Of a stretch of DNA of 64,000 nucleotides, positions 29,837-45,106 are shown one piece after another. Numbering within the stretch: position 1 is the stretch's first letter; every line of letters starts with the position of its first letter. The notes beneath the pieces were generated by a model, which worked only from the letters and a program-made list of their open reading frames with translations, did no database searches and was not told where the DNA came from. This DNA comes from Burkholderiales bacterium (lineage in GTDB: Bacteria > Pseudomonadota > Gammaproteobacteria > Burkholderiales > Nitrosomonadaceae): assembly GCA_015075225.1 (NCBI GenBank), contig JABTUQ010000003.1, positions 124,001-188,000 on the forward strand. The letters are read 5' to 3'. The translations under genes and the position numbers were made by a program.

Positions 29837-30110
29837 ACCACTTCCCGTTCCCTGCTACAACCTTCTTCACAAACGATTCCACTTTCTGCACTGCTACTTC
29901 GTGAGGTGCGCAGGTTTGTCTTCGCATGACTACATTGCGCCAAGACTATAGAAATCCCCTATAGAAGTCTCTTATTGGAGACAAATAAAATCCATTAAAA
30001 ACAAATACATGAACTGATTTGTGAGTTTTGTCACAGATCATGGCGACAATACTCCCTGAATTCGGAAGTGGTAAAAAGTTAATTTGCTGATTTACAACAA
30101 TAATTGTTAA

Positions 30111-30127
30111 TGGCATGGATTTTGCTT
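30111..30127 (+). promoter_or_regulatory. Sigma-54 (-24/-12) promoter of the N-acyl amino acid synthase gene
   Basis: TGGCATGGATTTTGC matches TGGCAYG-N4-TTGC exactly, with GG at 30112-30113 and GC at 30124-30125 at the required spacing. Transcription should begin near 30137, about 72 bases before the ATG at 30209. An NtrC-family activator would be required; none is encoded in the window. RpoN control of PEP-CTERM genes is known in other betaproteobacteria. Confidence 0.8.
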
Positions 30128-30208
30128 TTCTTAACACAATCACTTTTAATCCATGATTTTTTGAATTGCATACGTTGAATTTGAGAAACAACCCATAAGG
30201 AATACTTT

Positions 30209-31063
30209 ATGCAAATCGCGCTTCATCCCATGCAAGCCGTGGCCAAAAATACCCGATTAGCAAATCTTGTTTCAAATATCCTTTATCCTGATTCTTGCTC
30301 ACCCAGTTATACCAACCCGCAGGCACCCCTACAACAGCAATACAAAAGTGTAAAAAATTCCGACAACACCCCGCAACACACAGCCGATCCAAGCTGCCTT
30401 TTGCAGCGCAATGGCTACAGTATTCACCTGGTCAACTCCCTTAAACAGCGCATCAAAGCCAGCACACTCATCAAACGCATGTATGCTTCACGCGGCTATC
30501 AGACAGAGCAGACCTCCGTTTTTGGAACAAAACCCAATCAATATACCTTCGAAGCACGGCAATCCGGGCGGCTGATCGGCACGCTGACACTGGCCATTGA
30601 TACTGGCAAAGGATTGCTTGCCGATACGTTATACAAAACAGAGCTGGATCAGTTTCGTCAGCAAGGGCGCACGCTCTGCGAAGTTTCCAAACTTGCCTTT
30701 AACCCGGAAACCAGCTCAAAAGAAATATTCGCCTCCCTGTTTCACATGGCCTATATCTTTGCGCGCCGCGTTCATGGTGCGGATGATGCTTTCATTGAGA
30801 TCAACCCGCGTCATGCTGTTTTTTATAAACGCATGCTGGGATTTAAACAGACGGGAGAACAGCGCACCTGTCCGCGTGTGGATGCACCTGCAGTGTTGCT
30901 ACAGCTCAGCAAAGAATATATAGACACCCAAATCGCTATGTTGGCTGGAAGGTTTGACGATAAAGTCTGCAGTATTTATCCATATTTTCTCTCGAAGAGC
31001 GGAGAAGAACAGGTTTTTAGTGCGGTTCAGCAGATAAAACCAGATACCAGGTTGATGGCTTAA
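30209..31063 (+). CDS. FeeM-type N-acyl amino acid synthase (GNAT-like)
   Basis: 284 residues. After a variable N-terminus of about 75 residues, the acyltransferase core shows YSIHLVNSLKQRIKASTLIKRMYASRGY, the beta strands LIGTLTLAIDTGKGLLADTLY, RTLCEVSKLAF and DDAFIEINPRHAVFYKRMLGFK, and a C-terminal YPYFLS. FeeM enzymes move an acyl chain from acyl carrier protein to an amino acid, giving N-acyl amino acids or signals; in genomes they are often linked to exosortase/PEP-CTERM systems. The ribosome site AAGGA is good. The gene is preceded by a perfect sigma-54 promoter and followed by a Fic gene and a degenerate copy of itself at 31983-32283. Product identity cannot be told. Confidence 0.85.
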   Translation: MQIALHPMQAVAKNTRLANLVSNILYPDSCSPSYTNPQAPLQQQYKSVKNSDNTPQHTADPSCLLQRNGYSIHLVNSLKQRIKASTLIKRMYASRGYQTEQTSVFGTKPNQYTFEARQSGRLIGTLTLAIDTGKGLLADTLYKTELDQFRQQGRTLCEVSKLAFNPETSSKEIFASLFHMAYIFARRVHGADDAFIEINPRHAVFYKRMLGFKQTGEQRTCPRVDAPAVLLQLSKEYIDTQIAMLAGRFDDKVCSIYPYFLSKSGEEQVFSAVQQIKPDTRLMA

Positions 31064-31158
31064 TTTCAGCAAAGAGCAAAAACAAAATTTGTGATTGATT
31101 GATACGTTGTCTTTGTGCACCATTAAATTGTTTTTAACGATGTGCAGGGTGTGGCAGC

Positions 31159-31953
31159 GTGACTTTGTTTGATGTGCTTGGTTTTCAGTGGGATAGGTCG
31201 GCAGTACCAGTTTCCATCCCTTCATACTCGGTTGAGCGCGTCTGCTTTCGCTTCCATAAAATGTTGCCGGAGTTCGTGTGGGATGCCTCGATGCTGGAAG
31301 GTAACCCCCTCACATTTCCTGAAGTCAAGACCCTGCTGGATGGCATAACCGTCGGCGGGCACAGGATTTCCGATCAGGAACAAGTCCTGAATCTGGCAGA
31401 AAGCTCCAGACGTTTGCTGGCGATAGTTAAAAGCGGACAATTTGAGCTTTCCAAACTTGTTTTCACCGAATTAAACGGCATTGTTGCCCGCAATGAAGTT
31501 TTGGAATGGGGGGTGTTCCGTGGTGAAGGGCAAGAGAAAAATTACACTCCAGATGTGGCGCTGGGTGAGCACGGGCGCTATACCCCGCTGCGGACGCTAT
31601 CCGGTGCGCCGGAACTGAACCAGGTATTCTACGATGGCGTGACCGCGCTGCAAGCGTGCGCGCCGTTCGAGCGGGCAACAGCGTTTTTCCTGTTTGGTGC
31701 GTTGCAGCAATTCTTCTTTGATGGCAATAAACGCACATCGCGCTTCATGATGAACGGCGTGCTGATGTCGCATGGAATTGACGCCATCAGCATTCCCGCA
31801 GCCAAGGCACGGGAATTCAACGAAAAGATGGTGCGCTTCTATCTCTCAAAGGATGCAACCGAAATGATGGCATTCCTTGCGAGCTGCCATCCGGAAACGG
31901 AAGAAATTCTATTACGCGCGGAAGATCATCATCATGATAACGGAATCAATTGA
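31159..31953 (+). CDS. Fic-domain protein lacking the catalytic histidine
   Basis: 264 residues from GTG 31159. The N-terminal part has DASMLEGNPLTFPEV, resembling the inhibitory-helix SxxxE(G/N) region of class II Fic proteins. The Fic core follows, ending in the loop QQFFFDGNKRTSRFMMNG. Canonical Fic motifs read HxFx(D/E)GN(G/K)RxxR; here Gln stands where the catalytic His should be, while the Asp-Gly-Asn, Lys-Arg and final Arg remain. It may be inactive for AMP transfer, work differently, or bind nucleotides only. No antitoxin gene is adjacent. It sits between the N-acyl synthase and its decayed copy, upstream of the PEP-CTERM gene; whether it belongs functionally is unknown. Confidence 0.85.
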   Translation: MTLFDVLGFQWDRSAVPVSIPSYSVERVCFRFHKMLPEFVWDASMLEGNPLTFPEVKTLLDGITVGGHRISDQEQVLNLAESSRRLLAIVKSGQFELSKLVFTELNGIVARNEVLEWGVFRGEGQEKNYTPDVALGEHGRYTPLRTLSGAPELNQVFYDGVTALQACAPFERATAFFLFGALQQFFFDGNKRTSRFMMNGVLMSHGIDAISIPAAKAREFNEKMVRFYLSKDATEMMAFLASCHPETEEILLRAEDHHHDNGIN

Positions 31954-31982
31954 TAACCAATGGATTTCCCTGAATCGATAAA

Positions 31983-32283
31983 GACGAAGTAAAAGCCTGC
32001 ACAATTATCATTTTTGATGATATTTGCACACTGCACTTCGGAGTTGTAGGTGGTAAAAAATGTTTGCGCGATCACACCTTCATTGAAATCAGTCCATACT
32101 TGTTTCCACAAATGAATGTTAGGTTTTAAACAGGCAGGAGAGTTGAGCGCTTGTCTGCGCATCAATGCTTCGGCAATGTTGCTCCATTTGAGTAATGTGC
32201 GCGTAATAACACAAATCATTTCTTCGGCAGGCGGGCCTTACGAAAAAATATTTTTCCTGGAACAGTTTTTAAGCATCCTTTGA
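31983..32283 (+). pseudogene. Decayed fragment of a second FeeM-type synthase
   Basis: The plus strand keeps traces of the 3' half of the gene at 30209. At 32070 it reads DHTFIEISP against DDAFIEINP; a TTTTAAACAGGC matches the TTTAAACAGACGG region; and after a frame change it reads AMLLHLSNVRVITQI...AGG to FLSIL-stop against AVLLQLSKEYIDTQI...AGR and YPYFLS. Stops and frame changes make it non-coding. The left edge near 31983 is uncertain. It ends about 140 bases before the PEP-CTERM promoter, so it reflects an old duplication in this locus. Confidence 0.72.
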
Positions 32284-32422
32284 TGAAATGCAGAACAATA
32301 AAGATGTAGTGACAGATTTTTTCACGCAACTTCAAAATTTCTGATGTCGAAAAATTTTACATTTTTATGCATAACAAGCAGAACAACTTTGTATATTCAT
32401 GTTTTATAACGATAAAAATATG

Positions 32423-32439
32423 TGGCATGAAACATGCTT
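32423..32439 (+). promoter_or_regulatory. Sigma-54 (-24/-12) promoter of the PEP-CTERM gene
   Basis: TGGCATGAAACATGCTT, with GG at 32424-32425 and GC at 32436-32437, fits the sigma-54 spacing; the only departure is A for T at the first base of the TTGC box. The predicted start is near 32449, giving a leader of about 64 bases to the ATG at 32513. It has the same TGGCATG left half as the promoter at 30111. Confidence 0.75.
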
Positions 32440-33566: not shown

Positions 33567-35171
33567 CTAAAATTCGTAACGACCTGGTGAAAGGATATTA
33601 TCAGGATCAAACACCTGTTTGAGCTGATGACTGATCAGTTTGACATAGTCTCTATCGCCCTCTGGGGTTAAGTTAGGCATATTTTGAATACCGGCCCGAT
33701 AAGGGTAATAACCCGCAGCAGATAGTTTTAAGACCAATTCACGGTGACATGCCATTGCACGCTCATCTTCTCCCGGAACATCACGGTCATAAACAATTGC
33801 AATAACACCGCATAAAGCTCTTTCAGACATTAAAGCGAATGCGATTAGTGGCTCGAACGCATAAGTAAGCAATATTTGCTTCGAGATTTGATACATTGCC
33901 GTCGCGTGTGAGCCATCCAGTGGGGCAACTGGCGAATACCAGATCAAACCGCAATGATCCCGATCCGGATCCCTGATTTCTGGCGGTGCTTGCTTTTTCC
34001 GCCAGTAAGGCGTTGACATAGTAACGTCTGAAGGTATCCCTTTTTGCATGCCGTAAATTGATTCAATGATCGGAAACACCGATTTCAGATCAACACCTAG
34101 CAATTTTCCAAGGATTCCCGGAAAACGCCGAGCAACAGCCAGACTTGAGTCCGTCATGAAACTTAGTTTTGTGACTTTCTTAGTGAGCGCCCGCCGCAGA
34201 ATGCGCTTGGCTTCTTTAACCTGATTTTTAGTACCATATAGAGAGCCGGAACCACTCCAATCGTCACAACCAATAGACCGTGCGAGATCTTTTAAGACAG
34301 ATTCAGACATCGGGGTCTTGCCACCAGTCAATTTCCACGGATATTGGTAATAAGTATTGACTACCTTGTAGTTATTACCGATATGTACAGCACTTTGCAG
34401 AATCCCGCGTAATTTCAGTGGCTGCAACGCGTCGATAATGTCCACGAGCTTATCTTCACCATGGGCTTTGAAGTAGAAACACTCCATTCTTTCCGGCTCC
34501 GGCATCAGCCAGAGCGTCAGGCGCGTAACAATACCCAGATTAGATTGTGTAAATAATCCGTCCAGTGAAGGGCCAAGTCCCCATGGATACACCCGGTCTG
34601 CATGAGCATTGCCGTATTTACCGAACCCGGTAACAATGAACCGCCCATCAGGCAAAACAACTTCAAGGCGACAGATTTTAGAGACGCGATTGCTGTACGG
34701 CGAATAACCTACACCTCTTTCCATGATGTTGCCGATCAGGCTGGTTTCGGCGCTGGCTCCAGTAACATCTACCCATAAGCCAGATTTTGATTCTCTCAGG
34801 AAGTGCGACAGTTGCCCTTGTGTTACGCCAGGTTCGATAGTGACACAAGCCTGCTTCTGATCTAACTCGGTAATTTTATTGAGGCGTCCCAAGTGTAAAA
34901 TGACGCAATTATTTGCGGTAGGAGCACTGGAGCCGTTGCCCCAGTTTTTACCTGTGCTGACCGGGTATATAGGGATGCGGTAGCGGTTAGCGATCTGTAC
35001 GCATGTTTGCACTTCTTCCCGGTTGGAAGGATGAATTACAGCCGGACTTTGATTGGAGGTGGCAAAAGTTGCAGTTGCCACCCTGGAGAGCGTTTCTGTA
35101 TCAAGATCAACGTATTCATCACCTACAGCGGCTTTCCATGCCGAGATTGCATCCAGCAATGAGGGAGTCAT
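33567..35171 (-). CDS. FAD-linked oxidase, vanillyl-alcohol-oxidase/4-cresol-dehydrogenase type
   Basis: 534 residues. The N-terminal FAD-binding domain (PF01565 type) shows AVIHPSNREEVQTCVQIANRY, IYPVSTGKNWGNGSSAPTAN, VTIEPGVTQGQLSHFL and NIMERGVGYSPYSNRV; the C-terminal substrate cap ends QVFDPDNILSPGRYEF. Members oxidise phenolic or alcohol groups, sometimes with covalent FAD. No signal peptide, so cytoplasmic. The ATG overlaps the methyltransferase stop by one base (TAATG), so the two are translationally coupled. The substrate is probably the product of its operon partners. Confidence 0.88.
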   Translation of the reverse strand: MTPSLLDAISAWKAAVGDEYVDLDTETLSRVATATFATSNQSPAVIHPSNREEVQTCVQIANRYRIPIYPVSTGKNWGNGSSAPTANNCVILHLGRLNKITELDQKQACVTIEPGVTQGQLSHFLRESKSGLWVDVTGASAETSLIGNIMERGVGYSPYSNRVSKICRLEVVLPDGRFIVTGFGKYGNAHADRVYPWGLGPSLDGLFTQSNLGIVTRLTLWLMPEPERMECFYFKAHGEDKLVDIIDALQPLKLRGILQSAVHIGNNYKVVNTYYQYPWKLTGGKTPMSESVLKDLARSIGCDDWSGSGSLYGTKNQVKEAKRILRRALTKKVTKLSFMTDSSLAVARRFPGILGKLLGVDLKSVFPIIESIYGMQKGIPSDVTMSTPYWRKKQAPPEIRDPDRDHCGLIWYSPVAPLDGSHATAMYQISKQILLTYAFEPLIAFALMSERALCGVIAIVYDRDVPGEDERAMACHRELVLKLSAAGYYPYRAGIQNMPNLTPEGDRDYVKLISHQLKQVFDPDNILSPGRYEF

Positions 35172-36214
35172 TACAGCTTGGTACCTATAATAGCACCATG
35201 ATCCTGTTGCAGACGGAAGGTTTTAATCTCACCAAAACCTGAATCACTCAGCCATTTTTCGTATTCTGACCATGTGTATAACATCCCTTCCCCGGTAGCG
35301 ATCGTCAGAAAATAAGGGGAACCTAGTGCGGTTGAAAGAGGGCCAGTTTCATCGTTTTCCTGCATCATGTTGAATATGACGACTTTTCCACCCTTTGGTA
35401 AAGCCTCATAGGCTTTTCTGAATAATAATTTATTCTTAGCTTCTGACCAGATCGTGCAGAAATGTGAAAACAAAAAACAATCAGCACCTTTGGGGAAATT
35501 ATCTTCAAAGCAGTTGCCCGGGATTGCACTTAGTCGGTCACCTAACCCTGATTCATTTATTTTTTTTGCTGTTATTGGGCACACAGTCGGCAGATCAAAA
35601 ACAGCTGCCTGCAAATGACTGAATTTTCTTGCCAATTCGATGATGTTGGTGCCATCTCCGCCGCCAACATCTATCAAAAACCTGGTAGAGGATAAATCAA
35701 GATGATTTGCCAGATCCTGGTTCGCATGTATGGAGAGTTCATGCATGGCATCCTGAAAAATCTGTTTTATTTCCGGTGTATGTCCCAGACGTTGGTAGAG
35801 CGTTGGCTCATTTCCCGGGAATTCCTGCAAGCCGACATTTTTGTAGGTTTTAAGGGCTTCTACAAAATGGAACATTCCCTTATACATGACGTGGTATTGC
35901 AATTTTACGTAAGAGATAACGTTCCTGGGTGAGTGAGTGGTCAAAGCCATTTCCGCAGCAGGTGTGTTGGAATAAAAACCTTCAGTATCTCTTTGCAGAA
36001 TTCCAGAGCTTACGAGACCCAGCATTAGAATTCGGGCCGGTTGTTTTTCAATATTCAGCAGCTTTGTAATTTTAGAGATATCGAGTTTTTTGTGTTCAGA
36101 CAATTTTGTGAATAAGTCAAACTCAACTGCTGCATAGAGCGTCTGGAACAAAATATGACCACCGAAAATTTTAAGAAAATTATCAATATCTTTTTGTTCA
36201 ATTTCTTCAGTCAT
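35171..36214 (-). CDS. SAM-dependent O-methyltransferase (family 2, dimerising)
   Basis: 347 residues. The N-terminal winged-helix dimerisation domain (QTLYAAVEFDLFTKLSEHKK...KLLNIEKQPARILMLGLVSSGIL) precedes the methyltransferase domain with motif I FLIDVGGGDGTNIIELARKF, AAVFDLPTV, and VVIFNMM. This is the acetylserotonin/hydroxyneurosporene/polyketide O-methyltransferase type common in natural-product pathways. The usual catalytic His is replaced or shifted: SHFCTIWSEAKN stands where SHVLHDW is common. Ribosome site GGGAG. The middle gene of a three-gene minus-strand cluster. Confidence 0.86.
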   Translation of the reverse strand: MTEEIEQKDIDNFLKIFGGHILFQTLYAAVEFDLFTKLSEHKKLDISKITKLLNIEKQPARILMLGLVSSGILQRDTEGFYSNTPAAEMALTTHSPRNVISYVKLQYHVMYKGMFHFVEALKTYKNVGLQEFPGNEPTLYQRLGHTPEIKQIFQDAMHELSIHANQDLANHLDLSSTRFLIDVGGGDGTNIIELARKFSHLQAAVFDLPTVCPITAKKINESGLGDRLSAIPGNCFEDNFPKGADCFLFSHFCTIWSEAKNKLLFRKAYEALPKGGKVVIFNMMQENDETGPLSTALGSPYFLTIATGEGMLYTWSEYEKWLSDSGFGEIKTFRLQQDHGAIIGTKL

Positions 36215-36418
36215 AACGTTTACTCCCGATTTTATTTAAGTTGAATTAGTGTACAACACTACCAGATTTCACGAACGGAGCCAGGTGCAGTCTTATTGCT
36301 GTATCCGTCTCGTTTTATAGTCTTTGAATGTATTTCTAGAAGTATTTATGTGGCATACGAGACATCAACCACTTGGAAACAGTTTTTCCATTCTTGATTT
36401 TCTCCAGGTAACTACCAG

Positions 36419-37288
36419 TTAAACATTAAAATTATTTATAGCAAATTCATTGGCTCTTGCTTTTAACTCTTTAGCAAGAAGAAACAATCGAGGATACTTT
36501 GAAACTTCCTTCAGGAATCTGGTCAGAACGCGCAGATTATTCACGTTAGATGTGTAACGGTTGATAATTTCCTCTCCGCGCCCACCATATTCCCTAATGT
36601 TATCCGGGAATATTCTATTAATGAGCGGAAATATTCTCCGGAGCTTAATAATTTCAACTTCTCTTTTCCCCAATGGGCTTCCTTCATTAGGAAAAAAAGG
36701 AGTGAAAACCCAAGTAAAGTTGAGATTTACCTTGTCTAGTGAATGCACCTCGTGATACCAGTATCTGGGCACAAACAATAAATCTCCTGGGAGTGTCTCA
36801 AACTCCATGAAATCGTATTTTTCAGGATTGTAGTAAAAATTTCTTGAAACCATTCCGGCAAACATGAATGGTAAGGTTGGTAAAGGTGTATGAGGCGAAG
36901 TCAATATCCATTTCTTTCTGCCGGTTACCTGCAGATTAACGACATGCAGGCTGTTCCCATCATAGTGCGGTAATGTAATGTGGCCACAAGGTTGCATGAA
37001 AACGCGCATTGGCAGCTTCCGAAATGACATATCTGTCCGCTTCATGATTTGTTTGACAATTCCAGGGATTTGGATGATGTTATTTTCAATAAGGTCTGAG
37101 TTATACCAGCCCAAATCTTGCTTCGATTTGCTGCAGAAAAGTTTTTTAACTTCCTCGGGAGTTAGTCGCTTAGAATCACAGGCTTCAATACTAGAGATAA
37201 TAAAAGGTTTTTCTTCATTAAGAATTGTTGGAATAAAGTCGTCCTGGTTTACTACTTCGGCTGAAAAACGCCTGATATCTTGTTTCAT
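36419..37288 (-). CDS. Cupin_8 / JmjC-like Fe(II)-2-oxoglutarate oxygenase
   Basis: 289 residues from ATG 37288 (GAGG upstream; a longer start at 37354 is possible but lacks a ribosome site). The jelly-roll iron site is visible: LPHYDGNSLHVVNLQVTGRKK (His-X-Asp) and GDLLFVPRYWYHEVHSL (distal His). The Lys in GRKKWIL fits 2-oxoglutarate binding. Family members hydroxylate side chains of proteins, peptides or small molecules. A C-terminal helical region of about 70 residues follows. About 200 bases separate it from the methyltransferase, so shared transcription is likely but not certain. Confidence 0.83.
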   Translation of the reverse strand: MKQDIRRFSAEVVNQDDFIPTILNEEKPFIISSIEACDSKRLTPEEVKKLFCSKSKQDLGWYNSDLIENNIIQIPGIVKQIMKRTDMSFRKLPMRVFMQPCGHITLPHYDGNSLHVVNLQVTGRKKWILTSPHTPLPTLPFMFAGMVSRNFYYNPEKYDFMEFETLPGDLLFVPRYWYHEVHSLDKVNLNFTWVFTPFFPNEGSPLGKREVEIIKLRRIFPLINRIFPDNIREYGGRGEEIINRYTSNVNNLRVLTRFLKEVSKYPRLFLLAKELKARANEFAINNFNV

Positions 37289-37395
37289 AATGCTGGTGCC
37301 TCGATGGGATGAATTTAGAGTTGAGTATTCCTGATCAACGGACCATAACTTCATTAACTTTAGTTCACTAGTTCCATTACTCCGTTGAAATAAAT

Positions 37396-38634
37396 ATGTT
37401 TATAACTCATTTTTTTCTGGTACTGCGCAATCTTTTCCGCCATAAACGGCGCAGCATAGTTGCTATAAGCACTATCGTATTTGGAGTCAGCGCATTGCTG
37501 TTGGCGAATGGTTTTATTCAGCATATTTTTTATAATTTCCGTGATGCTACGATTAAGTCACACTTTGGCCATTTGCAGATTGTTAAGCCCGGTTATTTTG
37601 AAGCCGGGAAAGCGGATCCGTACCGTTTTTTGTTTTCGGATGACCTGGCGGCGCAATTGTCGAAAAATTTTACACTTGATGATGATAGTTTGCCGATCAA
37701 AGCAATTGTGCCGCGCCTGAGTTTCAGCGGGCTGCTTAGTCATGGTGATGCCACGATTTCGTTTGTTGGTGAAGGGGTTGATCCCGGTGAACAAATGTAT
37801 TTCAGTAATGCACTGCAGATTGTATCCGGGCAGCATTTGGCTGCTGATGATCCAAACCGGTTGATTATGGGAGCGGGATTGGCGCGCAATCTGGGTGTGG
37901 ATGCAGGTGATACGGTTGTATTGGTGGCCAATACCGCAACCGGGGGTATCAACGCGGTGGAGATGACGGTTGGCGGGCTGTTTACTACTGTTACCAAATC
38001 GTATGATGACAGCGCATTGCGCCTGCCAATCAGCACAGCCCAACAATTGCTACGCACGCAAGGTGCGCATAGCTGGATCGTGTTGCTAAATGATACAAAC
38101 CAGACAGATGCCGTGCTGGAGAAGGTGCGCGGGCTTTTGCCACAAGATCAATTCGAGGTCGTGCCGTGGTATCAACTGGCGGATTTCTACAATAAGACAA
38201 CGGTGCTATTTACCAAACAGGTACAGGCGATCAAGCTGATTATCGCCATCATTATTTTGCTGGGGATTTCCAATACGATGACGATGAATGTGATGGAACG
38301 TACCGGAGAGATCGGTACGGCAATGGCATTGGGTGTAAAGAAAATCGACATTCTGCGGCAGTTTTTATGTGAAGGCGCGCTGATTGGGAGTATCGGTGGT
38401 GTGTTGGGCGTTGCGCTCGGATGGTTGCTGGCAGAAGTTATTTCCGCAATCGGCATTCCCATGCCACCGCCACCCGGCATGGCACGCGGTTATGTTGGAG
38501 AAATTCTCATCCGGCCTGACATGGTGCTGGAGGCGCTGGCACTGGCGGTTTTGGTGACGTTAATCGCCAGTGTTTACCCAGCCTGGAAAGCATCACGTAT
38601 GCAGATCGTTGATGCACTACGACATAACCGTTAA
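37396..38634 (+). CDS. FtsX/MacB-like ABC transporter permease 1
   Basis: 412 residues: one N-terminal helix (VAISTIVFGVSALLLANGF), a periplasmic domain of about 220 residues with MacB-core features, and three C-terminal helices (AIKLIIAIIILLGISNTMTMNV, EGALIGSIGGVLGVALGWLLAEVISAIG, ALALAVLVTLIASVYPAWKASR). This four-helix type VII layout belongs to MacB/LolCE proteins, which move lipoproteins or other molecules by mechanotransmission rather than across the membrane. It is paralogous to the gene at 40450; both share the AIG-PMPPPP loop before helix 4 and the VDALR ending. The ATPase is at 43561. Confidence 0.9.
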   Translation: MFITHFFLVLRNLFRHKRRSIVAISTIVFGVSALLLANGFIQHIFYNFRDATIKSHFGHLQIVKPGYFEAGKADPYRFLFSDDLAAQLSKNFTLDDDSLPIKAIVPRLSFSGLLSHGDATISFVGEGVDPGEQMYFSNALQIVSGQHLAADDPNRLIMGAGLARNLGVDAGDTVVLVANTATGGINAVEMTVGGLFTTVTKSYDDSALRLPISTAQQLLRTQGAHSWIVLLNDTNQTDAVLEKVRGLLPQDQFEVVPWYQLADFYNKTTVLFTKQVQAIKLIIAIIILLGISNTMTMNVMERTGEIGTAMALGVKKIDILRQFLCEGALIGSIGGVLGVALGWLLAEVISAIGIPMPPPPGMARGYVGEILIRPDMVLEALALAVLVTLIASVYPAWKASRMQIVDALRHNR

Positions 38635-39105: not shown

Positions 39106-39627
39106 ATGAAAAAACTGGTTCTGGTTTTTATGGTTGTAATGCTGGCATCTCCTGCGTTTGCCGTGGAAGTTGCGCCGCGCATCAGTGATCGGGAAATCAT
39201 CGAATCTCTGGCCGAACTCAAAGCTGGGCAAAAGGCGCTGGAGGCGAAAATGGATCTGCGTTTTATTGCGATGCAGGAACAGATGGATCAACGTTTTACT
39301 GCGGTAGATCAACGTTTTACTGCGATGCAAGAGCAGATGGATCAGCGTTTTGAAGCGGTTGATCGACGGCTGGATTTCATCCAGCAGCTGATGCTGATTA
39401 CGATTGCCGGTATCTTTGGCCTGATTGGTTTTATCGTCTGGGATCGCTATTCCACGTTGCGCCCGATGGATATGCGCTTGCGCCGACTGGAGGAAAATCT
39501 CGAACATGATCTGGAGCTGCAATCACCGGAAGGTTCAAAACTGACGCGGATGATTCATGCTCTGCGTGAGCTGGCGAAAGAGGACAGGAAGATCGCGAGT
39601 ATCCTGCGTAGCTTCTCATTGTTGTGA
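39106..39627 (+). CDS. Coiled-coil membrane-anchored protein, paralog 1
   Basis: 173 residues. A signal peptide (LVFMVVMLASPAFA) leads to VAPRISDREIIESLAELKAG, then a coiled coil of near-repeats (MQEQMDQRF, TAVDQRF, TAMQEQMDQRF), a membrane helix (LMLITIAGIFGLIGFIVW) and a charged C-terminal region (LRRLEENLEHDLELQSPEG, MIHALRELAKED). Compared with its neighbour at 39916, it has an extra 18-residue repeat in the coiled coil. Function unknown; membrane coiled coils could act as adaptors or spacers in an envelope complex, and the position between two ABC permeases suggests a link. Confidence 0.8.
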   Translation: MKKLVLVFMVVMLASPAFAVEVAPRISDREIIESLAELKAGQKALEAKMDLRFIAMQEQMDQRFTAVDQRFTAMQEQMDQRFEAVDRRLDFIQQLMLITIAGIFGLIGFIVWDRYSTLRPMDMRLRRLEENLEHDLELQSPEGSKLTRMIHALRELAKEDRKIASILRSFSLL

Positions 39628-39915
39628 ACAGCATCCACCTGATTTATAACACCCCAGCAACTATTAAGTGCCCTGGATCGCCACAGCCCGGCGGGCCTCG
39701 CGAAGGCGAGGTTTTGTGAACCACGATGATGATGGAGCCCCGAGCTACTTCGTTTCCGTCACCTGCCTCATTGTATTTGCAGTCGCGGCTAAAGGCTGCG
39801 CTTTCTTGCAGAGAGAGGAAACCGGTATATCATCGGTGTCTGGTTGATTATTAACAGGGAGAATACGGTGAAGTTATTTTATCAATATTGCTTTATTCAG
39901 CCGGGAGCAAGGGTG
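39628..39915. other. Spacer with a degraded REP-like unit
   Basis: Holds CTGGATCGCCACAGCCCGGCGGGCCTCGCGAAGGCGAGG (a partial REP-like palindrome, 39672-39712). No gene beyond a non-conserved upstream extension of the next reading frame. Confidence 0.5.
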
Positions 39916-40380
39916 ATGAAGAGCTTTATTTTTTTCATGAGCATTATGTTGGCTCTGCCGACTTTTGCCGTGGATGTTGCGCCACGCATCAGCGATCGGG
40001 AAATCATCGAATCGCTGGCCGAACTCAAAGCTGGGCAAAAGGCGCTGGAAGCGAAAATGGATCTGCGTTTTACTGCAATGCAGGAACAGATGGATCGGCG
40101 TTTTGAAGCGGTTGATCGGCGGCTGGATTTTGTCCAGCAGCTGATGCTGGTGACGATTGCCGGTATCTTTGGTCTGATTGGCTTCATTATCTGGGATCGC
40201 TATTCAACACTGCGCCCGATGGATATGCGCCTGCGCCGACTGGAGGAAAATCTCGAACATGATCTGGAGCTGCAATCACCGGAAGGTTCAAAACTGACGC
40301 GGATGATTCATGCTCTGCGTGAGCTGGCGAAAGAGGATAAAAGAGTTGCGGCTGTCCTGCGCAGCTTTTCGTTGTTGTAA
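39916..40380 (+). CDS. Coiled-coil membrane-anchored protein, paralog 2
   Basis: 154 residues from ATG 39916, preceded by GGGAGCAAGGG. Nearly identical to the gene at 39106 over most of its length (SDREIIESLAELKAGQKALE, ITDR-type coil, IAGIFGLIGFIIWDRYST, LEHDLELQSPEGSKLTR), with a different signal peptide (FIFFMSIMLALPTFA) and a coiled coil one 18-residue unit shorter. A recent tandem duplication. The frame is open to 39844 but the added residues would bury the signal peptide. Confidence 0.8.
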   Translation: MKSFIFFMSIMLALPTFAVDVAPRISDREIIESLAELKAGQKALEAKMDLRFTAMQEQMDRRFEAVDRRLDFVQQLMLVTIAGIFGLIGFIIWDRYSTLRPMDMRLRRLEENLEHDLELQSPEGSKLTRMIHALRELAKEDKRVAAVLRSFSLL

Positions 40381-40449: not shown

Positions 40450-41661
40450 ATGTTCAAACTTGCCTTGCGCAATATCTTCCGCCAGAAAATCCATACATTC
40501 ATGACACTGGCCGCAATCATCTCCGGAGTTGCTGGCATTATTTTGGCAGGCGGATGGGTACACGATATTTATACCCAGCTGGGTGAAGCGCTGATTCATT
40601 CGCAAAGTGGTCATCTGCAGGTGTATCGCCAGGGCTATTTTGCGGCTGGCTCCCGCTCTCCGGAGAAATATCTGATAGATACGCCCGATACTATCAGGCA
40701 GCAAGTTGCCGGTGAAACCGGCGTCGCTCAGGTGATGGCACGGCTCAATTTTTCCGGGTTGATTAACAATGGTAAGAGTGATTTACCCATCATTGGCGAG
40801 GGTATGCAGCCCGATCTGGAATCGGCGCTAGGCAGCTCGATCCGGATTGTTGCGGGACGGCAACTGGCGGATAAGGATTCATTCGGTATTTTACTGGGCA
40901 AGGGCGTTGCGCAGGCGCTGCAGTTGCAGCCGGGTGATCCGGTGACATTGCTGGTTAATACCCTGGATGGCGCGCTCAATAGTCTGGATTTTGAAGTTAC
41001 CGGCATCTTTCAGAGTTTTTCCAATGATTACGATGCGCGCGCTATCCGGATTCCCCTGGCTGCTGCACAGGAATTGCTTGGTACCAGCGGCGTCAACGCG
41101 CTGGTTGTCTCGTTGCAGCACACCGAAGAAACAGGTGTCATTGCGGCACGGCTGAAGCAGGTATTGGCTTCATCCGGAATGGAAGTCAAAACCTGGGTGG
41201 AGCTCAATGATTTTTATGAAAAAACCGTGGAAATGTACAAGGGGCAGTTTGGTGTGCTGCAGATCATTATTCTGGTCATGGTACTGCTCAGCGTGGCCAA
41301 TAGCGTCAATATGAGCATTTTTGAACGTGCCGGGGAATTCGGCACGATGATGGCACTGGGCAATCGCAGCAGTCACATATTCTGGCTGATTGTCAGTGAA
41401 AATTGTCTGCTGGGGTTGATTGGCGGAAGCCTTGGGGTTGGGGGGGGGACATTGCTGGCGTTGATTATTTCTGCAATCGGGGTGCCTATGCCGCCACCAC
41501 CGAATGCGGATCTAGGCTACACAGCGCATATCGAGATCGTACCATCTGTTTTGCTGCTCGCGCTGAATACTGGATTTATTGCGACTGTGCTGGCGTCAAT
41601 TCTCCCTGCGCGGCATGTTTCGCGTATACCAGTGGTCGATGCATTACGACAAAACATATAG
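40450..41661 (+). CDS. FtsX/MacB-like ABC transporter permease 2
   Basis: 403 residues with the same layout as permease 1: N-terminal helix (FMTLAAIISGVAGIILAGGWVHD), periplasmic domain, and three C-terminal helices (LQIIILVMVLLSVANSVNMSIF, NCLLGLIGGSLGVGGGTLLALIISAIG, LLLALNTGFIATVLASILPARHV). Shared motifs include GHLQVYRQGYF versus GHLQIVKPGYF and PMPPPP. LolC/LolE-like pairs form heterodimers, so the two permeases probably form one transporter with the ATPase at 43561. Ribosome site CGGAG. Confidence 0.9.
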   Translation: MFKLALRNIFRQKIHTFMTLAAIISGVAGIILAGGWVHDIYTQLGEALIHSQSGHLQVYRQGYFAAGSRSPEKYLIDTPDTIRQQVAGETGVAQVMARLNFSGLINNGKSDLPIIGEGMQPDLESALGSSIRIVAGRQLADKDSFGILLGKGVAQALQLQPGDPVTLLVNTLDGALNSLDFEVTGIFQSFSNDYDARAIRIPLAAAQELLGTSGVNALVVSLQHTEETGVIAARLKQVLASSGMEVKTWVELNDFYEKTVEMYKGQFGVLQIIILVMVLLSVANSVNMSIFERAGEFGTMMALGNRSSHIFWLIVSENCLLGLIGGSLGVGGGTLLALIISAIGVPMPPPPNADLGYTAHIEIVPSVLLLALNTGFIATVLASILPARHVSRIPVVDALRQNI

Positions 41662-41662
41662 T

Positions 41663-42125
41663 GTAAAATTTTTCGACAATTTCCCCGCCATTATTTTTAA
41701 AGGATTGGATCACCACGTCGCTGTCGCTCCTCGTGATGACGGGGGGCGGTGAAGATAACAAAAACCGTCTTTGCGAATGCCGCCAGGCATGAAGCAATCC
41801 AGCAAGCGCTGTCAAACAGTACCCCTCAGCAACTGTAAAATTTTTCGATAATCTCCCTGCCATTATTTTTAAAGGACTGGATCACCACGGCGCTGTCGCT
41901 CCTCGTGATGACGGGGGGGCGGTGAAGATAACAAAAACCGTCTTTGCGAACGCCAGCGGCGTGAAGCAATCCAGTCTTTATGTTTATCCATGCCTTATGG
42001 ATTGCCACGGCGCTTTGCTTCTCGCGCTGAGGAGATAAATCAGCGTCTCTGTAAATTGGCGGGGGTGTGGTGAAGATAACAAAAATCGTCTTTGCGAACG
42101 CCAGCGGCGTGAAGCAATCCAGAGG
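41663..42125. repeat. Tandem REP-like repeat block after permease 2
   Basis: A unit starting GTAAAATTTTTCGA and ending GAAGCAATCCAG occurs at 41663 and again at 41835 (172-base period), with a partial third copy from about 42069. Each unit contains TGGATCACCACG...CTGTCGCTCCTCGTGATGACG and GGTGAAGATAACAAAAA. Bases 41766-41852 are an inverted copy of 38638-38722. A second-family unit (ending AAATCAGCGTCTCTG) lies at 41984-42050. No gene. Confidence 0.75.
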
Positions 42126-42137
42126 ATAAATTGTCCG

Positions 42138-43568
42138 TCAAAAAGAAAAACGCAGCTCGGTATATACTCTATCGCTGCTGTCAAACCGGCCGAATAATCC
42201 GGTCGCGGGGCCATTGAAAATATCGGCACCCGCTGCCAGTTTCCAGTTTCTGGAAAAATTCCAGGTAAGGCGCGGACGCAGCATCCATTCATCACGATTA
42301 AAGCTGCGAATCAGTAGTACCTGCCCCTGAAAATTCCGCCATAAATCTCCCTGCAGAAAAATGCTGCCTCCGCTTTCCAGCCGATCCTGAAAAATATCCC
42401 GGTCATAATCCAGATAGGCGCGCTGGAAAAACTGCAGATTCAGCCGGACATCCAGCGGCAGGGTGAAATCCAGCCCCAGCGCGTAGTCGATCGTATCCTG
42501 CCGTACCAGGCCGTCCAGCGCAGTCGGGCGAATGACATTGAAACGGCGCCCGTGGGTATAGACAAATTCACCCTTGAGTACGGCCGCCCCCAGATCCTTG
42601 GTGACGGTTCCACCTGCCTGATCGATTTCGTTGTGGCGCGCCTGAAACAGCAGTGGTTCCCAGGCTTGGCTGACGCGGTGGAAAGTGGGGGTGGCATCAA
42701 GGCTGTGATAATAAAACGCTGAAATATCCCAGCCATGCATCAGTTGCGACAGGCGGATGCCATAATTGGAATTGGCAACATTGCGCCCGGAGCGATTTTC
42801 CTTCAAAAACGTTGCTGGCGCTGCATTTGGTAGTGCAAACGGGTAAAAATCACCTCCCGGGCGGCCTATTTCATCCAGGCTGGCAAATGGAATCCAGATC
42901 AGGTCGGCATGGAAGTCATTTTTTGTATATTCGGTGCGAACAGCCCATTGCGGGATGCGCATGATATCGAAATCAGGCAGTACAAACTCGCGCATATCCC
43001 GGGCGGATACGACATCTGCGAAGAACAGTCCGACCATTTCTCCCCAGACGATATGCTGGCGGCCGATACGAACATCAAAATCGGCCACGGATACATCCAG
43101 ATAATTTTCCCGCAGGAACAACTCAAACCGCTGATCATGGCGAACCTGATGCGGATAAAAATCCGATAAATCGTGGATCGCATCGTAATCAATGCGTGCG
43201 CCCAGCTTCCATTTTACGTTCGCACTCAATTGCCCGAGATTCGACAATTCCGAGCGCAATCGCAGTTTTGAGGCGTGTTTGGGGCGGGCAATTGTTTCAG
43301 CGAATTCCAGTTGAGAAAATCCGCGCCAGGAGGAAGTCTGTTTGAATCGTTGTTGTGATGATTCAGCAGAATTCTGGTTGTCCCCCGCGAACAAATCATC
43401 CAGTGCGTCAGCTTGTACAATCCGGATGGGGTGAGTTTGATCTGCCAGGAAAAGGGGCAGGGGAGCGTCACCAGCAGCGTTACATTGTGGGGTGGCTCCC
43501 AATAGCATCAATAACAGCGATAACAGGGAGGCGATAATGTTGCCCGGAATCTTCAAAAAATCAGGCAT
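42138..43568 (-). CDS. DUF1302-like outer-membrane beta-barrel protein
   Basis: 476 residues from ATG 43568, overlapping the ATPase stop by 8 bases. A signal peptide (IIASLLSLLLMLLGATPQCNA) is followed by a barrel with many alternating strands (LRLRSELSNLG, WKLGARIDYDAIHDLSDFY, FDVRIGRQHIVWGEM) and a terminal aromatic, YTELRFSF. The motif RIGRQHIVWGE is typical of DUF1302-type proteins that accompany RND or ABC lipid-export systems. Likely the outer-membrane part of this transporter or a receptor for its cargo. Confidence 0.83.
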   Translation of the reverse strand: MPDFLKIPGNIIASLLSLLLMLLGATPQCNAAGDAPLPLFLADQTHPIRIVQADALDDLFAGDNQNSAESSQQRFKQTSSWRGFSQLEFAETIARPKHASKLRLRSELSNLGQLSANVKWKLGARIDYDAIHDLSDFYPHQVRHDQRFELFLRENYLDVSVADFDVRIGRQHIVWGEMVGLFFADVVSARDMREFVLPDFDIMRIPQWAVRTEYTKNDFHADLIWIPFASLDEIGRPGGDFYPFALPNAAPATFLKENRSGRNVANSNYGIRLSQLMHGWDISAFYYHSLDATPTFHRVSQAWEPLLFQARHNEIDQAGGTVTKDLGAAVLKGEFVYTHGRRFNVIRPTALDGLVRQDTIDYALGLDFTLPLDVRLNLQFFQRAYLDYDRDIFQDRLESGGSIFLQGDLWRNFQGQVLLIRSFNRDEWMLRPRLTWNFSRNWKLAAGADIFNGPATGLFGRFDSSDRVYTELRFSF

Positions 43569-44253
43569 GGCTATCATTTTCTTCAACGAGCTGGCCATCT
43601 TCAATGCGCACCAGACGATCTGCCATAGCCATGACCTTGGCATCGTGCGTTGAAAAAATGAATGTGGTGCGGCTGTTGCGATTGATTTCTTTCATCAGCT
43701 GCAGAATGCCTTCTCCCGTTTTGTGATCGAGATTGGCAGTTGGCTCGTCTGCCAGAATGATTTTGGGTTGTGTGGCGAGCGCCCGGGCAATGGCCACACG
43801 CTGGCGCTGTCCTCCGCTCAATTGATTGGGGCGGTGGTGTGCGAAACTGGATAGCCCAACGATGTCGAGAAATTTTGCAGTTCGTGCGCGGCGTTCAGCA
43901 GCACTCAATTCCTTGAGTTGCAGCAAGGGGTATTCAACATTTTCTTCCGCCGATAACACCGGAAAAAGATTAAATGTCTGAAAAATAAAGCCGATAGTTC
44001 TGGCTCTAAGTTCCGATAGCTGATCTGGTGTTTGCCCGCTGGTATCCTGGTTGTTGATGTAAATTTTTCCGGAGGAAGGGGTGTCAATGCAACCAATCAG
44101 ATTGAGCAATGTTGATTTTCCACTACCTGATGGGCCTGCAATAGCAAGAAACTCGCCATCCTCGATTTGTAGATCGATATTTTTTAGTGCATAAACCTGA
44201 CTGTCACCTAAAGTATAGTCTTTGGATACATTTTCAAAATGGACAACTTTCAT
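43561..44253 (-). CDS. ABC transporter ATPase, LolD/MacB family
   Basis: 230 residues. Walker A GPSGSGKSTLLNLIG, Q-loop FQTFNLFPVLSAEENVEYPL, signature LSGGQRQRVAIARAL, Walker B IILADEPTANLD and H-loop FSTHDAKV are all intact. It should power the two FtsX-like permeases on the opposite strand. It shares an operon with the barrel gene (overlap of 8 bases) and is divergent from the LolA-like gene. Confidence 0.93.
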   Translation of the reverse strand: MKVVHFENVSKDYTLGDSQVYALKNIDLQIEDGEFLAIAGPSGSGKSTLLNLIGCIDTPSSGKIYINNQDTSGQTPDQLSELRARTIGFIFQTFNLFPVLSAEENVEYPLLQLKELSAAERRARTAKFLDIVGLSSFAHHRPNQLSGGQRQRVAIARALATQPKIILADEPTANLDHKTGEGILQLMKEINRNSRTTFIFSTHDAKVMAMADRLVRIEDGQLVEENDSHA

Positions 44254-44320
44254 CTGTCTAGCCTTGCATAAATGGTTTTATGACAGTCTAAACCAGACAA
44301 ACAATTTTTGGAGATCGAGT

Positions 44321-45106
44321 ATGCGCTTACATTATTTGTTTTTTTCATGGATCGCTGGCTTTATTCTGCTGATTCAGGGAGGGGTTACGTTTTCATCCTC
44401 GGTAGAAGAAGGCGTGGCCGATACAAAAACAGAAATTTCGGCCCAAAGTATACTGGAGAAGGCGGATGAGATTCGTTTCCCAAGGGAGAGCTTTCAGGTC
44501 AATGTAGCTATCAGCACGGTCTCATCCGGTCAACCGGGAGATCAATATCAGTATCAGGTGCTCTCCAAGGGAAACGAAAACAGTATCGTCAGAATTACCG
44601 AGCCTGCTTCTGAACGGGGGCAGGTCATTCTCATGAAGGGACGCGATCTATGGATTTTCATGCCCAGTGTCTCCCAGCCGATACGTCTTTCTCTTTCGCA
44701 GCGATTAACGGGCCAGGTTGCCAATGGCGATATTGCACGCGCCAATTTTACTGGCGACTATCACCCGCAGCTGTTGCGCACTGAATCCATTGATGGTCAG
44801 GATTTCTATGTTCTTGGATTAACTGGTGTTGATCGCTCTGTTACCTATCAGAAAGTGCTGTTATGGGTAAATAAATCCAGTTTCAGGCCGTTTAAAGCAG
44901 AGTTCTTTTCTGTTTCTGGACGATTGCTCAAGACCAGCCGTTACGAAAATTTCGACACCATTTTGGGTGAGATGCGCCCAACCCGCATCATCATGGAAGA
45001 TGCCCTGAAATCAGGTGAAATTTCGGTGCTGGATTATTCGGATATGAAATTGCGTGAATTGCCGGACAAGCTATTCACCAAGGATTATCTGAAGAAGCTT
45101 GAATAA
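44321..45106 (+). CDS. LolA-like outer-membrane lipoprotein-sorting protein (PF17131 type)
   Basis: 261 residues from ATG 44321 (GGAG upstream). A signal peptide (LFFSWIAGFILLIQGG) precedes a domain with AQSILEKADEIRFP, VILMKGRDLWIFMPSVSQPIRLS, LTGQVANGDIARANFTGDY and DFYVLGLTGVD..., features of the LolA/LolB-like fold that shields acyl chains in a hydrophobic groove. With the LolCDE-like ABC parts nearby, it probably carries the cargo across the periplasm. Confidence 0.86.
   Translation: MRLHYLFFSWIAGFILLIQGGVTFSSSVEEGVADTKTEISAQSILEKADEIRFPRESFQVNVAISTVSSGQPGDQYQYQVLSKGNENSIVRITEPASERGQVILMKGRDLWIFMPSVSQPIRLSLSQRLTGQVANGDIARANFTGDYHPQLLRTESIDGQDFYVLGLTGVDRSVTYQKVLLWVNKSSFRPFKAEFFSVSGRLLKTSRYENFDTILGEMRPTRIIMEDALKSGEISVLDYSDMKLRELPDKLFTKDYLKKLE

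Follow-up and report, generated by a model that had tools for sequence, protein, structure and literature searches.

Background

PEP-CTERM genes of proteobacteria have a described promoter class. In the 2006 report by Haft (PMC1569441), 99 of 167 such genes are preceded by a 17-nt motif ending in TTTACA (motif 1) and then by a sigma-54 motif (motif 2), the two being 62.8 nt apart on average (standard deviation 10.6), and PrsR was inferred as the activator. A gene of this kind and its neighbour, encoding a FeeM-type N-acyl amino acid synthase, are the subject of this analysis. Both lie in a 64,000-nucleotide stretch (the window) of Burkholderiales bacterium assembly GCA_015075225.1, contig JABTUQ010000003.1, positions 124,001 to 188,000. 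The genus of the source genome is most likely Nitrosomonas, and the original prediction for this DNA placed the two genes in a single RpoN regulon.

In enterobacteria the GlrK/QseG/GlrR system is known for the small RNA glmY and for rpoE. For E. coli, PMC6075780 describes the outer-membrane lipoprotein QseG as an activator of the kinase QseE (GlrK); QseF (GlrR) in its phosphorylated form turns on glmY together with integration host factor (IHF), and the RNA made from glmY acts in cell-envelope synthesis. QseF binds TGTN12ACA and, assisted by IHF, activates from a sigma-54 promoter. The consensus is given as TGTCN10GACA in PMC8745638. A gene link between N-acyl amino acid synthases and PEP-CTERM is cited as a 2011 publication in three papers (PMC7293339, PMC4897644 and PMC11321762), and the passages citing it make no mention of sigma-54 or GlrR control of the synthase. 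The physiological role of the synthase products is still described as unclear in PMC4897644.

The two promoters

The FeeM and PEP-CTERM genes are likely to be transcribed each from its own sigma-54 promoter and with its own activator, GlrR being predicted for FeeM and PrsR for the PEP-CTERM gene. The features on which this reading depends are the following.

29967-29982, plus strand: inverted repeat GTCTCTTATTGGAGAC (GTCTC-N6-GAGAC), predicted GlrR/QseF-type upstream activating sequence (UAS), with the plan of the E. coli GlrR sites
30042-30048, plus strand: GGCGACA, second conserved element, possible half-site for the same activator; CGACA is found in 10 of 12 aligned FeeM promoters and [CG]GACA in 19 of 31 of a wider set
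30080-30092, minus strand: IHF-like site WATCARNNNNTTR, 18 bases before the -24 element, a position shared by 6 of the 7 FeeM promoters in the unbiased sample described below
30111-30126, plus strand: predicted -24/-12 sigma-54 element of the FeeM gene, TGGCATGGATTTTGCT, from exact pattern, conservation and matrix score
30209-31063, plus strand: FeeM-type N-acyl amino acid synthase, 284 amino acids (PF21926, 188 bits, cut-off 27; PDB 2g0b, E value 3e-14)
32345-32361, plus strand: predicted PrsR box TGTCGAAAAATTTTACA, matching Haft motif 1 and separated by 61 bases from the -24 element downstream
32423-32438, plus strand: predicted -24/-12 sigma-54 element of the PEP-CTERM gene, TGGCATGAAACATGCT, from exact pattern and matrix score
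32480-33466, plus strand: EDSAP-1 family PEP-CTERM protein, likely true start 32513 (NF041538, 186 bits; PF07589 over cut-off)

The protein matches uphold the gene identities first proposed, and the sigma-54 sites were confirmed with the exact GG/GC spacing claimed for them: TGGCATG-GATT-TTGC at 30111 and TGGCATG-AAAC-ATGC at 32423 are the sole exact matches to TGGCATGN5TGC in the window. They are also the top two sigma-54 sites on both its strands (18.4 and 17.2 bits on a sigma-54 weight matrix), followed by a single site of 12.8 bits. The pattern alone is little proof, because its one-mismatch version is not enriched in the window (7 matches against 11.8 expected). Genome-wide, TGGCAYGN5TGC had 32 matches against 4 in the reversed control, with 22 of the 32 falling within frames of at least 100 amino acids. 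What raises both window sites above chance is their conservation and the activator boxes that flank them, and both genes look sigma-54 dependent. A distance of 60-75 bases had been claimed for the two genes; it holds for the likely start of the PEP-CTERM gene, preceded by AAGGAG and 75 bases from the -12 GC, and fails for the longest PEP-CTERM frame (42 bases) and for FeeM (83 bases).

Conservation of the FeeM promoter was assessed in an unbiased sample of 37 same-genus genomes searched by protein alone, where 7 gave strong matches (over 140 bits). All 7 carry a -24/-12 site upstream of FeeM (scores 12.8 to 18.7, the weakest being reached by 265 of 5000 random 550-nt windows), so that the absence from relatives named beforehand as refuting the proposal was not observed. 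All 7 also present GTCTC-N6-GAGAC 127-131 bases ahead of that site, and no PrsR box there. Haft motif 1 was not found upstream of the FeeM -24/-12 element. The IHF-like site was called by match to a consensus only. In another family, a FeeM locus (L065, genome G056) has a -24/-12 site of 17.2 bits with a different upstream palindrome, TACGACA-N6-TGTCGTA.

The PEP-CTERM promoter and the PrsR box

The PEP-CTERM half of the locus, with sigma-54 and PrsR, is already known, having been published in 2006 (PMC1569441). The fit of TGTCGAAAAATTTTACA to motif 1 was judged on its TTTACA end and 17-nt length, not on the full logo. PrsR is encoded in the source genome (TIGR02915, 773 bits, cut-off 502.6), where the paired PrsR-box/sigma-54 pattern occurs in five places; going by position, four of these lie ahead of PEP-CTERM matches, of which the one on C14 is weak (E value 0.06). 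In the window, TGTCGN6TTTACA was found 5 times against 0.02 expected under a first-order random model. The original prediction took RpoN with the PrsK/PrsR pair as controlling PEP-CTERM proteins in Zoogloea. This is borne out in part: in PMC9850573 RpoN dependence of a PEP-CTERM gene is shown in Aquincola, and PrsK/PrsR control is termed probable.

Four boxes of this type in the window are orphans with no sigma-54 site within 110 nt (37658-37674, plus strand; 41662-41678, 38334-38350 and 30349-30365, minus strand), three of them inside genes, and 16 more were identified in 401 kb read from related loci. L019 (G000:C13:196350) has a PrsR-type box about 110 nt ahead of a sigma-54 site, upstream of a gene that by eye resembles a lytic transglycosylase.

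The surroundings of PrsR (L043, G000:C12:222000-236000) comprise an exosortase-associated acyltransferase, an exosortase-A-associated ligase and decarboxylase, and an amidotransferase, along with a weak match to a PvdQ-like acylase, a possible N-acyl hydrolase. PrsK was not found beside PrsR in the 14 kb read, the remainder of the genome not having been searched for it. The sole TIGR02602 exosortase match over cut-off lies on another contig than FeeM and is split over two frames (G000:C16:19141-19846; about 9142-9847 in L054), as either a decayed gene or an assembly error would produce. Since this match is split, sorting of the PEP-CTERM protein in the source strain is uncertain.

The GTCTC promoter set of the genus

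The full GTCTC/sigma-54 architecture was identified 35 times in 23 of 85 same-genus genomes, with no match in the reversed control. Thirty loci were fetched, comprising 12 where the promoter would drive FeeM, 15 with other frames downstream (2 judged chance) and 3 without a called open reading frame (ORF); two further matches, both on G085:C187, lie outside the fetched set. Alignment of 33 GTCTC promoters gave as common elements GTCTCTnnnnaGAGACAaA, a AAAACAAttnGTTA element, GCGACA, TGATT and the -24/-12 site, and outside the boxes the left-aligned spacer of the 12 FeeM promoters is 40% identical. The search pattern fixes the arms of the box in this wider set, and for that reason the unbiased sample, complete in 7 of 7, matters.

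Pfam was run on 10 of the 15 frames other than FeeM. It placed L108 (G085) over the PEP-CTERM cut-off and L121 (G087) just under it (20.2 against 20.7 bits), so that a GTCTC-type promoter is found on a PEP-CTERM-like gene in two related genomes. The other outcomes were a subtilase (L093), a lectin-like protein (L107) and a PAS protein (L112), sub-threshold matches for L094, L095, L111 and L118, and none for L109. A scan of the promoter flanks for an adjoining activator gene by GAFTGA-type motif returned one match only, in L131, which was no lead; the scan is weak, because PrsR itself went unflagged.

Distribution of boxes and regulators

GlrR orthologues (64-100% identity, next best 45%) were identified in 32 of the 85 genomes. 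PrsR over cut-off and the PrsR-box/sigma-54 pattern were each found in 33, with 31 genomes common to both sets and no pattern match in the reversed control. The combinations were as follows.

Both regulators, 28 genomes: GTCTC promoter in 18, PrsR box in 27
GlrR without PrsR, 4 genomes: GTCTC promoter in 3, PrsR box in 1
PrsR without GlrR, 5 genomes: GTCTC promoter in 1 (G024, judged chance), PrsR box in 4
Neither regulator, 48 genomes: GTCTC promoter in 1 (G027), PrsR box in 1 (G022), both judged chance from sequence

The GTCTC matches of G024 and G027 were set down to chance ahead of the GlrR search, on their GC-rich composition and because the other elements are lacking. Once both are dropped, every one of the 21 genomes with a GTCTC promoter has GlrR (p 3e-12), and 18 of the 21 have PrsR (p 6e-7). 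Keeping them gives 21 of 23 for GlrR (p 5e-10) and 19 of 23 for PrsR. In G034 the PrsR match contains four stops and the FeeM promoter is intact. The GTCTC box tracks GlrR better than PrsR, and the PrsR box tracks PrsR. Because the two boxes differ and track different regulators in the 85 genomes, the two genes have sigma-54 in common and most likely differ in their activators.

A single PrsR regulon for both genes was considered and rejected on the boxes and the genome profile. A form of it in which PrsR reaches FeeM through a divergent site, such as a reversed CGACA half-site, is improbable. It draws on the presence of PrsR in the source genome and in 18 of the 21 GTCTC genomes, on the neighbourhood of FeeM and PEP-CTERM genes in 10 of 12 loci, and on CGACA being the reverse complement of the PrsR-box TGTCG and standing at about PrsR-box distance in 10 of 12 FeeM promoters. 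However, none of the 12 FeeM loci whose flanks were read has a PrsR-box/sigma-54 match driving FeeM. GTCTC promoters are moreover kept in three genomes without PrsR over cut-off and in the one with stops in its PrsR match, and they are missing from 4 of the 5 genomes that have PrsR and lack GlrR, the fifth match being the one judged chance. Of the single RpoN regulon first proposed, the parts that find support are sigma-54 for both genes, with the element conserved upstream of FeeM, the presence of PrsR and the 10 of 12 linkage; a common activator is not supported, in view of the different boxes and profiles.

GlrR as candidate activator of FeeM

Matches to TIGR02915 comprise four NtrC-family activators in the source genome: PrsR, a GlrR orthologue, an FlrC-like protein and NtrX. 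Their identities to E. coli GlrR are 38.1% for PrsR, 56.9% for the GlrR orthologue, 40.8% for the FlrC-like protein and 31.5% for NtrX.

G000:C14:251221-252582: GlrR (QseF)-type response regulator of the source genome, by orthology to E. coli GlrR

The recognition helix RNRTEFYKLL is the same in E. coli GlrR and in this protein, and does not vary among the 30 genus orthologues fetched from 33 matches, whereas the C-terminal helices of the FlrC-like protein and NtrX differ from it. The Nitrosomonas glr locus is ordered kinase-lipoprotein-regulator, which is the glrK-qseG-glrR order. Three TGTC-N10-GACA sites, including TGTCTCTTTTTAGCGACA, are found at glmY of E. coli K-12. Read together with its flanking bases, the GTCTC box of the genus takes this QseF/GlrR consensus form, a T preceding it in 20 of 33 cases and an A following it in 28 of 33. 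No GlmY-like RNA was identified at Rfam gathering scores in 7 kb around the Nitrosomonas glr locus, E. coli glmY being detected alongside.

The FeeM promoter could also depend on sigma-54 with some other NtrC-family protein as activator, be it the FlrC-like protein, NtrX or one absent from the assembly, which is 95.5% complete. The first two are indeed encoded in the source genome, but this is quite unlikely, given that the box resembles the E. coli GlrR sites, that the recognition helix is GlrR's, with those of the FlrC-like protein and NtrX differing, and that, in a profile covering GlrR and PrsR, the fit to GlrR is exact once the two matches are dropped. Least credible of all, and very improbable, is that the -24/-12 matches have no function and that sigma-70 promoters serve the two genes: the unenriched one-mismatch pattern and a weak sigma-70-like match at 32309-32338 would suit it, but the window has 7 sigma-70-like matches where 7.1 are expected, with none listed upstream of FeeM on the plus strand, and the architectures that combine -24/-12 with an activator box recur across the genus, their reversed controls giving zero matches.

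Several points weigh against separate GlrR and PrsR control. The source GlrR scores 586 bits, below the NCBIfam GlrR cut-off of 763, and identity to the E. coli counterparts is only 23% for QseG and 32% for GlrK. The source box, AGTC-N10-GACA, is one base off the published TGTN12ACA (A for the first T). The GlrR matches of G085 and G087 have one stop codon each. No strict GTCTC promoter was identified in 11 of the 32 genomes with GlrR, whose GlrR therefore acts on different or looser sites, or on none of this kind. The p-values overstate independence, because the genomes are related and GlrR and PrsR occur together in 28. Incompleteness affects some of the genomes by which the regulators are told apart (G014 83%, G015 87% and G018 91% complete), three of the four with GlrR alone. 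Outside the genus, a good sigma-54 site was found at 1 of 5 strong FeeM loci examined (L065), a count that omits a sixth match, the second copy in G050. Apart from these points, a search of the fetched loci for the RpoN-box motif gave no match, rpoN itself not having been searched genome-wide.

If control by GlrR and PrsR is as proposed, a phosphorylated GlrR (QseF)-type regulator would bind GTCTC-N6-GAGAC at 29967-29982, and probably GGCGACA too; IHF would bend the DNA between this UAS and the FeeM promoter, and GlrR would open the closed complex at 30111, leading to FeeM transcription. PrsR would bind TGTCGAAAAATTTTACA at 32345-32361 and activate at 32423, giving transcription of the PEP-CTERM gene. 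The FeeM product would be an N-acyl amino acid, formed by acyl transfer from acyl carrier protein to an amino acid. Binding, activation, IHF bending, this product and any joint matrix role are what we infer from sequence, and that the lipid and the surface protein act together is a guess.

Linkage of FeeM and PEP-CTERM genes

In 10 of the 12 GTCTC-FeeM genomes, FeeM has a PEP-CTERM gene no more than about 10 kb away, 9 of them by Pfam and G012 by tail pattern only; none was seen near FeeM in G025 (11 kb read) or G068. The linked gene has its own PrsR-box/sigma-54 promoter in five genomes (G000, G001, G034, G078 and G105), and in two more the box spacing is looser (84 and 96 nt in G065 and G098). 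The source genome contains 9 PEP-CTERM matches at an E value of 1 or better in 2.48 Mb, so this neighbourhood should be rare by chance, random loci not having been counted. The pairing is a recurring locus with two different activator boxes.

Other genes of the locus

Two further features lie between the FeeM and PEP-CTERM genes.

31159-31953, plus strand: Fic/DOC-like ORF with GTG start (PF02661, 22.6 bits, short of its cut-off, 24)
32095-32250, plus strand: remnant of a second FeeM that retains just the C-terminal part and carries an in-frame stop (tblastn 48% over 52 amino acids, E value 2e-11; PF21926, 20.6 bits at 32053-32190)

The Fic/DOC-like ORF is possibly transcribed by read-through from the FeeM promoter; none of the terminator-like sites listed falls between it and FeeM. 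The remnant sits directly upstream of the PEP-CTERM promoter. The sole named relative from the FeeM protein search was Nitrosomonas sp. SJ624 (L084), with a FeeM 64% identical; its locus is probably not independent of G012.

Downstream, the window contains MacB/FtsX permeases (37396-38634 and 40450-41661), a LolD-like ATPase (43561-44253), a DUF1302 protein (42138-43643) and a LolA-like protein (44222-45106). The MacB/LolD-type genes are a candidate N-acyl amino acid exporter, because homologues of some of them adjoin FeeM in L085, L088, L090 and L091. Beside the PEP-CTERM gene, at 33567-37354 on the minus strand, are FAD oxidoreductase, O-methyltransferase and JmjC/cupin genes, possibly tailoring enzymes; an FAD oxidoreductase related to the one in the window is found near FeeM in L085 and L086. 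A tandem pair of closely similar small coiled-coil-like proteins is encoded at 39106-39627 and 39844-40380.

Significance and comparison with known systems

The original prediction had presented the pair as the best candidate for an undescribed system here. This does not apply to the PEP-CTERM half, published in 2006, nor to the link between synthase and PEP-CTERM, cited from 2011; it may apply to the GlrR-type FeeM promoter. No description linking GlrR to an N-acyl amino acid synthase or to PEP-CTERM was found among the papers listed in the literature searched, where most subscription papers are lacking, and N-acyl amino acid synthase was met together with RpoN merely through the reference list of PMC11321762. 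The new part is the FeeM half, with its GlrR-type promoter and the genus-wide promoter set.

N-acyl amino acid synthases recur in environmental DNA, and a named candidate activator, a defined predicted site and a promoter set make it possible to test when and for what purpose N-acyl amino acids are produced by an ammonia oxidiser. The idea of PrsR controlling both genes is corrected, and a new type of target, in betaproteobacteria, would be added to those of the QseEF/GlrKR system. More tentatively, it is conceivable that in part of the genus Nitrosomonas GlrK/QseG/GlrR runs a sigma-54 regulon of extracellular output (FeeM in 12 genomes, PEP-CTERM-like genes in 2, a subtilase and other exported-looking proteins in more) and that, with the neighbouring PrsR promoter, one locus integrates two independent sigma-54 signals into a lipid-plus-protein matrix.

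The PEP-CTERM gene conforms to the Haft promoter class in motif 1, spacing, motif 2 and distance to the start codon, with PrsR encoded; the source genome departs from that system in that no PrsK adjoins PrsR in the region read and the exosortase match is split. The FeeM promoter falls outside this PEP-CTERM/PrsR class. As in the link of 2011, to the extent that the citing papers describe it, a FeeM-type enzyme adjoins PEP-CTERM genes, but here a candidate exporter of MacB/LolD type lies close to FeeM, with the exosortase match on another contig. The closest counterpart of the FeeM promoter is that of E. coli glmY. The left arm of the source box starts with A instead of T, but both promoters present a spaced palindrome, a GCGACA half, an IHF-like site and a -24/-12 element, and the two systems have in common the recognition helix of GlrR and the order of kinase, lipoprotein and regulator.

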